Positions 53,787-62,400 of a stretch of DNA of 64,000 nt are shown here, one piece after another. Origin of the DNA: Streptomyces sp. Ag109_O5-10 (lineage in GTDB: Bacteria; Actinomycetota; Actinomycetes; Streptomycetales; Streptomycetaceae). A program made the translations under genes and the position numbers. The notes below the pieces were generated by a model. It did no database searches, had not been told where the DNA came from, and saw nothing but the letters and a program-made list of their open reading frames with translations. Numbering within the stretch: position 1 is the first letter of the stretch; every line of letters begins with the position of its first letter. The DNA is taken from NCBI RefSeq assembly GCF_900105755.1, contig NZ_FNTQ01000001.1, forward strand, positions 1,736,001 through 1,800,000, read 5' to 3'.

Positions 53787-54437
53787 ATGTTCCCCTACAA
53801 CGAGCTGGGAGAATTTCTCAAGAAACGTCGCGCCGAGCTGAGCACGCGCACTGTGGGCCTGCCCGACAACGGCGGCCCCCGCCGGGTCGCCGGGCTGCGC
53901 CGCGAAGAGGTCGCCCAGCACGCCAGCATCAGCACCGGCTACTACACGCATCTCGAACAGGGCCGTATGCAGGCGTCCGCGCCCGTGCTGGACGCGCTCG
54001 CCCGGGTGCTCCGTCTCGACGACGAACGGGGCTTTCTCTTCCAGCTCGTCGGCAAGACCACCACCCACACCGGCAGGAGGCGGCGGCAGAAGATCCAGCC
54101 GCAGTTGCAGCGCGTGCTGGACGGCGGGCGCGCGGGGTCAAACCCCGGGCACCGTGCCCGCCGGCTGCTCTTCCACGCGTTCCCGCGCGGCACCGTAGGA
54201 CCGGGAGATGCCGCTGCCCAACGCATGGACACCGGCCACATCACGGGCCGCCATCCCGGCGATCTTCTCGACCACACCCTCGGCGATGGTGGTTTGACCC
54301 CGCGCGCCCGGGTCGCCGCGCTTCACGCCGGCGTTCTTCCTGGTCCCCTCGCCCATGGACTCTGCTCCGGATGCCTCGGGGCGGTTCTGCTGTCCGCTCT
54401 CGGTCATGGCCGGTCGTCCCTTTCCCAGAAGAGGTGA
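53787..54437 (+). pseudogene. Truncated XRE/MmyB-type regulator
   Basis: The first about 112 residues are a normal XRE helix-turn-helix of the MmyB class: LGEFLKKRRAELSTRTVGLP, RRVAGLRREEVAQHASISTGYYTHLEQGR, ending QPQLQRVLDGG near 54127. The ligand-binding domain is absent. The frame continues to 54437 only because it reads the antisense of an Asp23 gene, giving a non-family tail. It is a broken copy of the regulator type at 47719-48609. Confidence 0.82.
54138..54407 (-). pseudogene. Truncated Asp23/Gls24-family envelope-stress gene
   Basis: Starts at ATG 54407 with AAAGGG upstream. An acidic, polar N-terminus leads to the Asp23 core GQTTIAEGVVEKIAGMAARDVAGVHALGSG and ARERV, where the family match ends. 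A stop follows at 54138. About two thirds of the domain is lost where the gene meets the truncated XRE gene tail-to-tail. Its divergent neighbour, the P10-like gene, is intact. Confidence 0.8.
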
Positions 54438-54610
54438 CAGCCGCCCGCTTTTCCACCTCAGGTCCGTTTGGCTGGCACTGCTCCAGGGATACGGCAGACG
54501 TGGGACCGCCCCACCGAACAGGTGGCATGAGCAGCCGCAACAGGGTGGTTCCGGCAGTCTGGGCACAGCAGGTCAGTGGAAGAACGCGGTAAGAGAAGGG
54601 GTGAGAACCG

Positions 54611-55578: not shown

Positions 55579-56204
55579 TTTGTGACGAAACGTCAGGCAA
55601 GGCTTTTACCCGATGCCGTTGCTGGAGGGCTTCGCGCTGAAGGTCGCCAGCATCATGGGCCTCAAGCGGCAGCCAGCACGTGGGGGCTGTCGAGGGAGCG
55701 CTGCTCGCCGCGCACCTGATCGGTTACGCGGACCTGCTGTCATCGGCGATGCCGGTGGGTGTCGCCGCGGTCTTCGCGCTGCTGCATCACGCGCTGTTCG
55801 GGCTGCACCTGGGCTGCTCCTTCGCGCCGAACCACAAGGGTATGCCGATGCCTGAGGCGGACGGCGAACGGCGGGGGCATCTACGCTGCCAGGTGCTGAC
55901 CTCGCGCAATGTGCGGGGCGGACGGGTGACCGACTGGTCCCTGGGCGGTCTGAACTACCTGGTGGAGCATCACCTCTTTCCGAGCATGCCGCGCCACAGC
56001 CTGCGCCTGACCCGGCCTGTGGTGCGCGAGCGCTGCCACCGACGCGGCGTGCCGTACACCGAGGCGGGCCTGATCGACTCCAATGTCCGCGCTGCGGCAT
56101 ACGCACGCGGTCGGCGCTCCGCTGCGGGCAACTCGATAAGCGACGGCCGACTGCGCCACGGCGTGGCCTTTTGCGCAGTCGGCCGGCGGAGGGTCAGGTG
56201 CTGA
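55579..56204 (+). pseudogene. Fatty-acid desaturase relic (C-terminal third)
   Basis: Three frames give FVTKRQARLL, then PLLEGFALKVASIMGLKRQPAR, then EGALLAAHLIGYADLL, LGCSFAPNHKGMP, RCQVLTSRNVRGG and LNYLVEHHLFPSMPR. Frameshifts fall near 55605 and 55675. The first two histidine boxes are missing; the third (EHHLF) remains. It is a paralogous relic of the intact desaturase at 62470-63522. Codon use matches the surroundings, so decay is recent or was after duplication. Confidence 0.82.
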
Positions 56205-56700
56205 GCAGGCGGTCGAAGAAGGACCGGTACTGCTGCAGGGCTTTGCGCAGGTCCTCGGTGGCGACCTCCTCGCCGCGGTGCCATTGACCTTCCAACCCGT
56301 GCTTGTGGTCGGCGAATGTGGTGGCGAGCAGCTGCATCACCTCGGCGACGAGCGCGTCTGCCGCACGCACCGACTGCTGCGGGTCATCGACGAATCCCTG
56401 CTGGATCTCCTGCCACCTGGTCCGGAGGTCCTCTGTCTCCTGGGGTCCGAGAAGCGGGGCGGTATCGGGCTTCTGCGCGGACGCGTCGTGTCCGCCGGCT
56501 GCGGCGTCCGGCTCCCCTTCGGCCGCGTCCGTGATTCTGGTCCTGGGCGCAGCCCGGTCGGCTGCGGGGGCTGCCGTCAGGTCATCGTCGGGGGGTTGTT
56601 GCGGTGCATCTGTCCGGGGCCGGGCGATGTCCTCGGTGGACAGACCCTCTTGGCCGGGCTCGGCATACTCGTCGCGCCCGAATGGTCCTTCTCTCTGCAT
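56194..56700 (-). CDS. Hypothetical stress-associated protein with shared C-terminal domain (paralog A)
   Basis: 168 residues. Residues 1-85 are low-complexity, acidic and probably disordered. The C-terminal about 85 residues are a helical domain, RTRWQEIQQGFVDDPQQSVRAADALVAEVMQLL and EDLRKALQQYRSFFDRLLST. The same spaced pattern (Wxx[IV]Qxx FVDxPxQ and YRxxFxxLL) occurs in the neighbouring gene. No enzyme motifs. AAGGG precedes the ATG. Its 3' end overlaps the desaturase relic by 11 bp. Confidence 0.78.
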   Translation of the reverse strand: MQREGPFGRDEYAEPGQEGLSTEDIARPRTDAPQQPPDDDLTAAPAADRAAPRTRITDAAEGEPDAAAGGHDASAQKPDTAPLLGPQETEDLRTRWQEIQQGFVDDPQQSVRAADALVAEVMQLLATTFADHKHGLEGQWHRGEEVATEDLRKALQQYRSFFDRLLST

Positions 56701-56745
56701 GTCCCTTCACCTCCATGCGGTGGTCACGCTCCCGGCTGCTGGGCA

Positions 56746-57300
56746 CTATCGGCGTTCCTTGTCCGACGAAGCGGTGCCGCCGTCGTGCAGCAGTTCCTCG
56801 AACAACGCCCGGTAGTGGACCATCGCGCTCCGCAGTTCTTCGGTTGACGTGCCCCTGCTGCCGGCGCGCTCGTTGATCTCGTGGGCGATGCGGTAGTGCT
56901 GCAGCGTTTGGGCGTGTTCGACCGAGAGATCCCGCTCTTGTTGCTCGTAACCCTCGGTCGGGTAGCCCCGCTCGCTCATGAGCGTGGTCACGAGCCGGTC
57001 CGCCTCGCCCACGGCCTGGTCGGGACGGTCGACGAAGTGTTCCTGCACGCTGGTCCAGTCCCGGGCGTACCGGTCCCGCACCGTCGAGGGCAGTGGCCTG
57101 ATCTCCAGCGTTTCATGCCGCTCCTCCCTCGCCCTCAGGTCGCGGTCGGCCGCGCCACGGCTGTGCTTCGCCTGGACCGTGCGCTCGTATTCCGGCCCGA
57201 AACGTTCCCGCAGCCGCTGGCGCCGGATCGTGGTCCGCAGGACCAGCGCGACCACGGCCAGGATGACCACGACAGCCACGATGATGACGATGGTCGACAT
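56746..57300 (-). CDS. Membrane-anchored protein with shared C-terminal domain (paralog B)
   Basis: 184 residues from ATG 57300, with GGAGG five bases upstream. A strong N-terminal membrane helix (TIVIIVAVVVILAVVALVL) precedes basic and charged helices (HSRGAADRDLRAREERHE). The C-terminal domain shares with paralog A the pattern WTSVQEHFVDRPDQAVGEADRLV and ELRSAMVHYRALFEELL. It is likely a periplasmic-face or cytoplasmic helical domain tethered to the membrane. Function unknown. Confidence 0.8.
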   Translation of the reverse strand: MSTIVIIVAVVVILAVVALVLRTTIRRQRLRERFGPEYERTVQAKHSRGAADRDLRAREERHETLEIRPLPSTVRDRYARDWTSVQEHFVDRPDQAVGEADRLVTTLMSERGYPTEGYEQQERDLSVEHAQTLQHYRIAHEINERAGSRGTSTEELRSAMVHYRALFEELLHDGGTASSDKERR

Positions 57301-57578
57301 CGCATCCTCCACTCCTTACAGCCCACGACCGGCAGCCATGTTTCAGAAACGACTGAGCCGCATGCAGCTCGGCGCGCCCCGCACGACAGGCTTCAACGGC
57401 CACCGGTGACGTACTGCCCAGGCACGCGGTGCGCCGCACTCTCATCGGGACTTCCCCACACGATCTTGATCTCACGGGTGAGCACGCAACGACGCGTGCC
57501 ACACACGGCCGTCGTTACATCGCCGGCCATCGGCTCTACACGCGCGGGACTTCATCGCCGTGCGGGTGTCGAGGCCCT

Positions 57579-57734
57579 CTACCAGTAGTGCCGTCGCCCG
57601 CGGACCCCATGCCCAACAGCGCCCAGGAGCAACAAGATCAGTCCAATGACGAGCAGGATGATCCCGATGGTCCACAGAATGGCGATCTTGGCCAGGAACC
57701 CGATGACGAGCAGAATGACTCCCAGGGCGATCAC
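57579..57734 (-). CDS. DUF6131-like small membrane protein, 51 aa
   Basis: GTG 57734 has GGAGG five bases upstream. Two hydrophobic stretches, ALGVILLVIGFLAKIAILW and IGIILLVIGLILLLLGAVG, are followed by the basic tail VRGRRHYW. This matches small DUF6131-type stress-associated membrane proteins of Streptomyces. It is too short to appear in a normal ORF listing. Confidence 0.85.
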   Translation of the reverse strand: MIALGVILLVIGFLAKIAILWTIGIILLVIGLILLLLGAVGHGVRGRRHYW

Positions 57735-58865: not shown

Positions 58866-59039
58866 ATGAGTATCTCGAAGAAGATCGCGCACAAAGCCGA
58901 AGCGATGAAAGGTGGCGCCAAGAAGACGACCGGCCGCGCCACCGGCAGTCGGCGCCTGCAGGCCGAAGGCCGCGGAGACCAAGTCAAGGGCAACATCAAG
59001 CAGGCCGGGGCGAAGATCAAGGACGTCTTCAAGCACTGA
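58866..59039 (+). CDS. CsbD-family general stress protein, 57 aa
   Basis: MSISKKIAHKAEAMKGGAKK, followed by RLQAEGRGDQVKGNIKQAG. This is the lysine/glycine-rich CsbD signature (GxxDQxKGxxKQAxGKxKD). GGGTGG lies upstream. CsbD proteins are abundant under osmotic and other stress and are sigma-B targets in several Gram-positives. Too short for a standard ORF cutoff. Confidence 0.93.
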   Translation: MSISKKIAHKAEAMKGGAKKTTGRATGSRRLQAEGRGDQVKGNIKQAGAKIKDVFKH

Positions 59040-59370
59040 CCACTCCGCCCCGGACCCGGCGCGGTACGGGTCGATGGTTCCAGTTGAGCCGTCCCGCTAG
59101 GAGTGGAAGCCGTGACAAGCGGGGACTTTCGCTGTCTGCGGGGAGTTTTGGGGTCCGCCAGTGGGTGGTGATCGTTTCCGCCGCTCGGGAGATCAAGGTT
59201 TCCGCCGACAATCCGGGCCCTCCAGCGGGTTCGCAGTGCATGCAAGTCGGTTACCGCGACTGCTCTGTCCCTGAACTGGCGGCCGAACGATCTCAGCGCG
59301 GAAAGCGGGTTTCGCCGCCACATGCTGCTTCTCTCTCCCCCCGTGGGTACGCTGAGAGCAGGTGTTCACC
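59040..59370 (+). other. Noncoding leader/promoter region of YihY copy 2
   Basis: No gene is seen. The right end carries the stress-sigma-like promoter described separately; the remainder is unremarkable. Confidence 0.4.
59327..59350 (+). promoter_or_regulatory. Sigma-B-like promoter before YihY copy 2
   Basis: GCTT (59327-59330), 14 bases, then GGGTAC (59345-59350). This matches the Streptomyces general-stress sigma consensus GNNT-N14-16-GGGTA(C/T). The start codon follows 20 bp later with a purine-rich AGAGCAGGTG ribosome site. Confidence 0.55.
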
Positions 59371-60357
59371 ATGGATTGGCTGACAAGGCTTCCTGGCATC
59401 GCACGGCTGATGCGTACGCACGTGTGGCGGGCGTACGAGCGGCTGGCCAAGACCCACTGGGCCCGGCTCGCCGCCGCCATCACCTACATCAGTTTCGTCG
59501 CACTCTTTCCTCTGATCACTGCGGGCGCGGCGATCGGCGCCAAGCTGCTGAGCAAGGACCAGCTCAGCAAGCTCCAGGACAAGATCGCCGGCCAGGCACC
59601 GGGCCTCTCCAACCTGCTGAACCTGAACAGCCTCGTCGCGAACGCCGGAACCGTCGGGCTCATCGCAGGCGCGCTGCTGCTCGTGATCGGCATCAACTGG
59701 GTCGGCGCCCTTCGCGGCTGCCTGCGTGCGGTCTGGGAAAAGGAGCAGGACCCGGGGAATCCGATCCTGCTCAGACTCAAGGACACCGGGGTACTGGTCG
59801 GTCTCGGCGTGGTCGGGCTGGTAGCGATGGGCAGTTCGGTGTTCGCGAACAGCGCGGTCGGCTGGGCCGCCGACAAGGTCGGGATCGAGGGCAGCGCGGG
59901 ACGGGTGCTGCTGTACTTCGCCGGCCTGGCCATCGCCCTGCTCGTCGACTTCCTACTCCTGGTCTACCTGCTCACCCGGCTGCCGCGAGTGCATCCCGGG
60001 CGACGTGCGGTCGTGGTCGCCGGGCTGATCGGTGCGGTCGGCTTCGAACTGCTCAAGCTGCTGCTGACCGGCTATTTCCAGGGCGTCGCAGGGAAGAGCA
60101 TGTACGGCGCCTTCGCCGTCCCGGTCGCCGTCGTGCTGTGGATCAACCTCATGGCCAGGCTGCTGCTGTACTGCGCCGCTTGGACGGCGACGGGCACAGC
60201 AGCGGAGTCCAGCGAAGCAGACGCAGGTGAGGGCCCGGTTCCCGGGACCAGACCCGCAGTGACCGACGAGCCCCAGCGGGCAGCGGAAGGCGCCGGTCCA
60301 CCAACAACACCGCGCAGGCCCTTATGCCGAGCGGTCCCCGACCCGCCCCGGCGGTGA
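59371..60357 (+). CDS. YihY/BrkB-family membrane protein (copy 2)
   Basis: About 328 residues from ATG 59371 (an in-frame GTG at 59362 is possible). Six membrane helices; conserved WARLAAAITYISFVALFPLI, NWVGALRGCLRAVWEKEQDPGNP, VLLYFAGLAIALLVDFLLLVYLL, and FELLKLLLTGYFQGVAGKSMYGAFAVPVAVVLWINL. A hydrophilic Pro/Ala tail follows. Belongs to the classical YihY subfamily, different from copies 1 and 3. Confidence 0.92.
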   Translation: MDWLTRLPGIARLMRTHVWRAYERLAKTHWARLAAAITYISFVALFPLITAGAAIGAKLLSKDQLSKLQDKIAGQAPGLSNLLNLNSLVANAGTVGLIAGALLLVIGINWVGALRGCLRAVWEKEQDPGNPILLRLKDTGVLVGLGVVGLVAMGSSVFANSAVGWAADKVGIEGSAGRVLLYFAGLAIALLVDFLLLVYLLTRLPRVHPGRRAVVVAGLIGAVGFELLKLLLTGYFQGVAGKSMYGAFAVPVAVVLWINLMARLLLYCAAWTATGTAAESSEADAGEGPVPGTRPAVTDEPQRAAEGAGPPTTPRRPLCRAVPDPPRR

Positions 60358-62373: not shown

Positions 62374-62400
62374 GTTTGCCGGTCTCAGGGATGTGGGTAC
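62374..62400 (+). promoter_or_regulatory. Possible stress-sigma promoter of the intact desaturase
   Basis: GTTT (62374-62377), 17 bases, then GGGTAC (62395-62400), 70 bp before the desaturase ATG. Spacing is one base beyond the usual 14-16. It lies inside the YihY relic. Confidence 0.35.

Follow-up and report, generated by a model that had tools for sequence, protein, structure and literature searches.

Two adjacent genes of Streptomyces sp. Ag109_O5-10 encode a membrane-anchored protein, here called B, and a soluble partner, A, which share one helical domain. As judged from their sequences, A and B are a real, widespread and unnamed pair. We propose tentatively, with a probability of roughly 0.45, that the two genes make up a general-stress operon, with B holding A beneath the membrane in the manner of the staphylococcal AmaP-Asp23 system and through an unrelated domain. 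The genes lie in a window of 64,000 nucleotides (the whole stretch of DNA that was analysed) within a genome of 9.46 Mb. An earlier note on this DNA had placed two reading frames on the minus strand, at 56194-56700 and 56746-57300, and both are found there. The features on which the text draws are:

56746..57300, minus strand: gene B, membrane-anchored protein of 184 aa, with the ATG chosen in the earlier note as its start
56194..56700, minus strand: gene A, soluble partner of 168 aa, which starts 45 bp past the stop of B
57579..57734, minus strand, upstream of B: DUF6131 small membrane protein of 51 aa (Pfam PF19626, E 2.4e-9)
58866..59039, plus strand, 1.6 kb from B: CsbD-like protein of 57 aa (Pfam PF05532, E 1.9e-14)
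57301..57578, minus strand: intergenic stretch ahead of B, searched for a SigB-type motif

The common domain of A and B

That A and B share one helical domain, as the earlier note had suggested, is confirmed by pairwise and profile matches, while the reversed and shuffled controls were empty. All three motifs on which the suggestion was based occur in both proteins, namely W-x2-[IV]-Q-x2-FVD-x-P-x-Q (WQEIQQGFVDDPQQ and WTSVQEHFVDRPDQ), AD-x-LV (ADALV and ADRLV) and the end motif [LR]-x-A-x3-YR-x2-F-x2-LL (LRKALQQYRSFFDRLL and LRSAMVHYRALFEELL). BLASTP aligned A with B at an E value of 4e-8 (30% over 91 columns), and in the profile check of this kinship, for which 24 B's and 27 A's were each turned into a profile of their own, the two matched at 99.3% (E 3.6e-20, 93 columns). 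At an E value of 1e-3, an A-only profile recovered 79/79 B's and a B-only profile 77/77 A's, with 0 matches among the reversed versions of these sequences (79 and 77) or among shuffled ones (790 and 770). These proteins were drawn from 80 loci, in which 80 B's and 78 A's were found, one of each being dropped for unclear letters or the lack of a start; the pattern W..[IVL][QK]..F[VIL][DE].P is present in 75 of the 77 A relatives and 77 of the 79 B relatives. The simplest reading of the sequences is that A and B are descendants of one old duplication.

The two proteins differ in their N-terminal parts much as the earlier note had described them. B is membrane-anchored by a strong N-terminal membrane helix. 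A is soluble with an acidic head that is predicted to be disordered: residues 1-80 have block pLDDT values of 43-57 and contain 18 acidic and 8 basic residues. Across 75 relatives, the A heads carry a mean charge of -0.15 per residue, and no 19-residue stretch in these 75 proteins lies above 1.56 on the Kyte-Doolittle scale. Net charge in 79 B's averages -0.05 before the membrane helix versus +4.2 over the 15 residues after it, and the C-terminal side of the helix is the more positive one in 78/79. From this charge pattern and the positive-inside rule, the helical domain of B should face the cytoplasm, the same side as A.

The likeness expected of the predicted structures is partial, since both domains are helical, whereas B has a four-helix core and A three helices, one of them long. 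In the AlphaFold model of B (mean pLDDT 86.3), a helix at residues 2-34, within which the membrane segment lies, is followed by linker helices (36-45 and 48-63) and by the core (72-171) with helices at 72-91, 93-111, 127-146 and 153-171. The model of A (mean pLDDT 71.6) consists of the disordered head (1-80) and a domain at 86-167, with block pLDDT values of 81-98 and helices at 86-102, 107-140 (the long one) and 148-167. In these models, the long middle helix of A looks like helices 2 and 3 of B joined; on this reading A would be unable to complete a four-helix bundle by itself, and swapped dimers or its insertion into a partner would be favoured.

The domain is unnamed, as the earlier note had said, in so far as searches of Pfam, NCBIfam and the PDB yielded no name. 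Neither A nor B of the window has a match above cut-off in Pfam or NCBIfam. Pfam was run on the window's A, on the lone A of locus L064 and on 64 B's, for which the best E value was 7e-4 among the first 25 of 45 families; NCBIfam was run on the window's B and on 66 A's, for which it was 5.5e-4. Matches were scattered over unrelated families in both sets. In a sequence search of the PDB, B had three matches, of which none is credible (best E 0.28), and A had none; with Foldseek, neither model matched any structure at an E value of up to 0.001. In a second look (VIA), the top matches were 2hsb for B (Z 8.5, rmsd 3.8, 110 aligned) and 5lcy for A (Z 7.2, rmsd 3.9, 79 aligned). These fold matches, at Z 6-8.5, were set aside as generic helical bundles (HEPN, GIT1/p130Cas, FRB, designed proteins) in the chance range. 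FrmR/CsoR-like proteins, to which 5lcy belongs, have three helices and need a partner to close the bundle, but 5lcy and A are 8% identical, with a Foldseek E value of 3.9 and a Z within the chance range for helical bundles. Among 12 plasmid-collection records with B, the protein is annotated as hypothetical in seven, is no listed gene in four and stands in an unannotated record in one; the A's adjoining B in three Streptomyces plasmid records are hypothetical proteins as well. We found no name for A or B in the literature, where nameless proteins offer nothing to search by and most subscription papers lay outside the search.

Distribution and inheritance of the pair

The family is large. One scan of genome contigs gave at least 595 stretches, at least 581 of them encoding relatives, the best 80 of which are the loci analysed here. 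Streptomyces inhibens, Actinacidiphila and Kitasatospora carry the closest kin of the pair among the matches listed. B is present in 46 of 61 genomes (own genome included) and in 53/296 genomes spread over the phylum; matches to the A profile occur in 91/296 class genomes, a count which includes B's that the A profile also finds. B is also carried by 12 plasmid-collection records. A B with 48% identity was found on a plasmid of the alphaproteobacterium Qipengyuania citrea, with no A within the 16 kb examined; this B (L193:7890-8528) is directly 5' of a lysophospholipid acyltransferase gene and a DUF1295 gene, neighbours which give a hint of a lipid role. A phage or mobile origin of the family was rejected: the phage collection of 50,697 records contained no match, and none of five pattern matches in viral contigs is a relative.

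In 78 of these 80 loci, the gene directly 3' of B on its strand is A, with gaps that are all 200 bp or less (median 16 bp, gene starts taken mechanically). A 79th locus (L092) has a tblastn match to A downstream of B, and the last one (L115) has none after B. The 80 loci are the closest relatives of B, so that the rate of 78/80 is not valid for all B's. With flanks of up to 1.5 kb, an A was near B in 25/29 loci of a wider sample (L004-L032, of which L015 ends about 330 bp after B) and in 15/30 loci of a phylum-level sample (L163-L192, the window's own pair included), which leaves 15/30 phylum-level actinobacterial loci with no A near B. Because B stands without a nearby A in many actinobacteria and in Qipengyuania, it must also act alone, and this wider occurrence without A suggests that B is probably the older form.

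An unrooted tree was built for 31 A domains and 45 B domains from 112 columns, which are few for this number of rows; in it, a single branch with 100/100 support separates A from B. The genome has a second B-A pair (C1: 6601619-6602143 and 6602395-6602775), whose A falls among the A's and whose B falls among the B's, so that the pair seems to have been duplicated as a unit. The simplest reading of the tree would be that A and B were split by one duplication and that whole pairs were duplicated later. The B of Microtetraspora glauca (L144) is placed inside the Streptomycetaceae B's (98/97 for a set of five) and its A in an unresolved fork with Streptomycetaceae A's; transfer of this pair as a unit is possible.

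Upstream motif and neighbouring genes

A link to stress control, which the earlier note had considered, is supported in part. A SigB-type motif precedes B in 34/80 loci, and genes for CsbD or sigma-factor regulators are neighbours in part of the loci, but in the window itself, the stretch ahead of B (57301..57578) lacks this motif. A narrow SigB pattern, GNNT-N14-16-GGGTAY, was rejected with 1 match in 81 upstream regions against 1.08 expected by chance. A second pattern tested alongside it (9/81 versus 1.42) was rejected too, most of its matches being in the start of the gene itself. An unguided search in a thinned set of 74 upstream regions found TTT-N15-GGGC in 29, compared with 0.33 in shuffles. 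The form GTTT-N14-17-GGG[TC]A lies within 500 nt before B in those 34 of the best 80 of at least 581 relatives (30 as N15-GGGCA, three as N16-GGGCA, one as N15-GGGTA), a count made post hoc, after the narrow pattern had failed, and over loci which are related and thus not independent. The other 46/80 have no motif within 500 nt before B. Matches extend over Streptomyces, Kitasatospora, Actinacidiphila, Nonomuraea, Microtetraspora, Streptosporangium, Lentzea and Amycolatopsis, and 29 of them stand 50-80 nt before the assumed start of B (555 nt ahead of its stop).

Within 300 nt, the motif precedes 32/80 B's versus 18/784 other genes of the same loci, as delimited by our own simple gene caller (Fisher p 7e-24, which ignores the kinship of the loci). 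When the spacing was varied as a control, 29 B matches had a spacing of 15 and three a spacing of 16; the spacings 5, 9 and 21 gave a single match apiece. The 80 loci (0.93 Mb) contain 62 motif sites compared with about 20 in shuffles; 34 of these precede the gene cluster of the pair and three precede CsbD genes. According to PMC8346170, the SigB consensus of B. subtilis is GTTTAA-N12-14-GGG, and in S. coelicolor GTTT and GGGCA occur in promoters that SigB homologues recognise. In its sequence, the motif upstream of B has the form of such promoters, and we infer that it may be a working promoter. In the genome studied here, GTTT-N15-GGGCA occurs at 16 sites, compared with 6 for the pattern read backwards, and none of the 16 is at either B-A pair. 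GTTT-N14-17-GGGCA is absent from the window, which has one GGGTA form at 62374, away from the pair. A site of the form GCTT-N14-GGGTAC at 59327-59350 on the plus strand, just 5' of a BrkB/YihY membrane protein gene (59362-60357), fits a looser SigB-type pattern; it is one of four such matches on the same strand after 50 kb and may be a chance match.

Neighbours at a distance of up to about 5.5 kb were counted in the 80 loci, of which some are shortened by contig ends. Each group was named from the Pfam match of a single member, except that DUF6131 and CsbD were assigned by likeness to the window's proteins. STAS was found in 20 loci, SpoIIE/PAS proteins in 15, sigma-70 in 13, HATPase_c_2 in 10 and 5, DUF6131 in 11, hemerythrin in 6 and CsbD in 5. 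SigBFG model matches number 15-31 in genomes of the same genus and reach at least 39 in large genomes of another family, corresponding to a background per 11 kb of about 3% for the own genus and of no less than 3% for the other family. Sigma factors were nonetheless rejected as a general neighbour of the pair: their 13/80 exceeds the 3% background, yet 10 of the 13 come from one Streptosporangiaceae block, and the signal may therefore be a single event.

In the window, DUF6131 is upstream of B and CsbD is on the opposite strand; on a plasmid of Streptomyces sp. NBC_00984, DUF6131, B, A and CsbD stand in line, and in genome G012 a gene assigned by likeness to DUF6131 is likewise upstream of the pair. 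CsbD was rejected as a general neighbour, with its 5/80 loci and, in a comparison of 61 genomes made by eye, five CsbD matches at 5 kb or less from a match to A or B. Of these five, G000 has two and G012 one, and the other two, in G043 and G046, are next to weak A-like matches. Three CsbD matches were found in this genome. It also has a third A-type gene, without a B (C1:218298-218645 by our own caller, profile E 2.1e-22), which overlaps by 4 bp a CsbD-like gene scoring 28.8 of 40 bits, below the Pfam cut-off. These two genes (L064:8114-8646, C1:218113-218645) have transposase-like genes nearby, as seen by eye.

On the other side of the pair, the C-terminal piece of a fatty acid desaturase (55680-56204, plus strand, profile positions 142-251 of 253) overlaps the 3' end of gene A by 11 bases on the opposite strand. 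A truncated Asp23-like gene (54138-54566, minus strand), 1.6 kb from gene A, covers profile positions 2-37 of 108 only, with E 1e-5 and 26.3 bits, below the Pfam cut-off of 28. These two pieces suggest gene remnants on the A side of the pair.

Possible roles of the pair

The AmaP-Asp23 operon is under SigB control, and CsbD is SigB-controlled in Bacillus. In Staphylococcus aureus, the soluble Asp23 is held under the membrane by its anchor AmaP, encoded in the same operon, and the loss of either protein induces a cell wall stress response, which connects them to envelope homeostasis (PMC6954212). The A-B pair resembles this system in that the genes for a membrane protein and a soluble partner are adjacent, B then A, 45 bp apart here and kept together in 78/80 relatives. 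It differs in that neither A nor B matches Asp23 (PF03780, up to E 1), in its all-helical models and in the one domain common to both partners. By analogy, A and B may work like AmaP-Asp23; since neither protein matches Asp23, they are not members of that system. CsbD-like proteins (PF05532) are neighbours of the pair here and in NBC_00984 and of the lone A-type gene, and three of their genes are preceded by the same motif as B, but the CsbD profile has no match in A, B or the lone A-type protein of L064. The motif GTTT ... GGGCA is common to the SigB-type general stress regulon of Streptomyces and to some relatives of B, a likeness from which the window's own pair departs.

The earlier note's picture of a soluble and a tethered partner stands as to soluble A and membrane-anchored B, and is refined by the predicted cytoplasmic side of the B domain. 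In the general-stress operon that we favour, A and B would be kept as one operon and belong, in many actinomycetes, to the SigB-type general stress regulon, so that stress would open the operon via a SigB-type sigma factor. B would enter the membrane with its helical domain toward the cytoplasm, and A would bind B through the sister domain, either alone or as A oligomers, for which the long middle helix would favour swapped dimers. From the B-bound A, the acidic disordered head would reach outward, and A held by B could form a stress-induced layer or docking site beneath the membrane, with a putative envelope-protective role. We consider it rather unlikely that the unnamed family goes as far as founding a stress-induced scaffold at the inner membrane face in actinomycetes, anchored by B and built of oligomers of A, whose long central helix would be swapped with other A's or with B; such a scaffold would have been invented separately from AmaP-Asp23 and have arrived at a like arrangement. 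The kept partner, the recurring motif and the predicted topology together give the pair a testable job in Streptomyces and its relatives, as a complex that stress induces on the inner side of the membrane. In these bacteria, SigB-type responses tie osmotic stress to development (PMC8346170).

Other roles can be weighed against this operon. The Streptosporangiaceae, in which the pair is often beside STAS, HATPase, SpoIIE/PAS and sigma-factor genes, could point to A as a regulator of a sigma factor or another regulator, with B as a membrane-bound antagonist that frees or captures A when the envelope gives a signal, as in a partner-switching or anti-sigma pair, and the weak match of B to RskA_C (E 0.048) would agree with such an anti-sigma role. 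This match, however, scores 14.4 bits against a cut-off of 29.4 and covers residues 9-83, so beginning in the membrane segment; up to E 1, neither A nor B matches a STAS, HATPase_c_2, SpoIIE or zinc anti-sigma domain, and of the Streptomyces loci in the set of 80, just three have a sigma gene at a distance of about 5.5 kb or less. We regard this role as distinctly unlikely. It is improbable, too, that B alone serves lipid or envelope metabolism as a membrane adaptor, with A as a soluble competitor which joins the B bundle and limits the self-association of B. B seems wider spread than A and lacks a nearby A in distant actinobacteria, and the Qipengyuania plasmid B precedes an acyltransferase and a DUF1295 gene; the lipid neighbourhood is one case, however, A is kept beside B in nearly all close relatives, and a mere competitor would not need a long disordered head.

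Co-expression alone would yield the same operon and promoter if A and B were paralogues with separate jobs in the stress response and no contact, and this genome does have an A-type gene without B beside a CsbD-like gene. Separate jobs, which we consider unlikely, are argued against by the long shared inheritance of the two genes, by their duplication as a pair and by the charge pattern, which would place both proteins on the same side of the membrane.

Two further conserved proteins are encoded near the pair, neither with a Pfam match. One, of 144 aa, has its gene upstream of B, on the strand of B, in 14 loci of Nonomuraea, Planotetraspora, Microbispora and Streptosporangium, L149:4985-5419 among them. 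The other, a small protein of 64 aa that is hydrophobic by eye (L129:7227-7421 and 12 further loci), is encoded directly 3' of A on the same strand in these 13 loci and is a possible third member of the operon.
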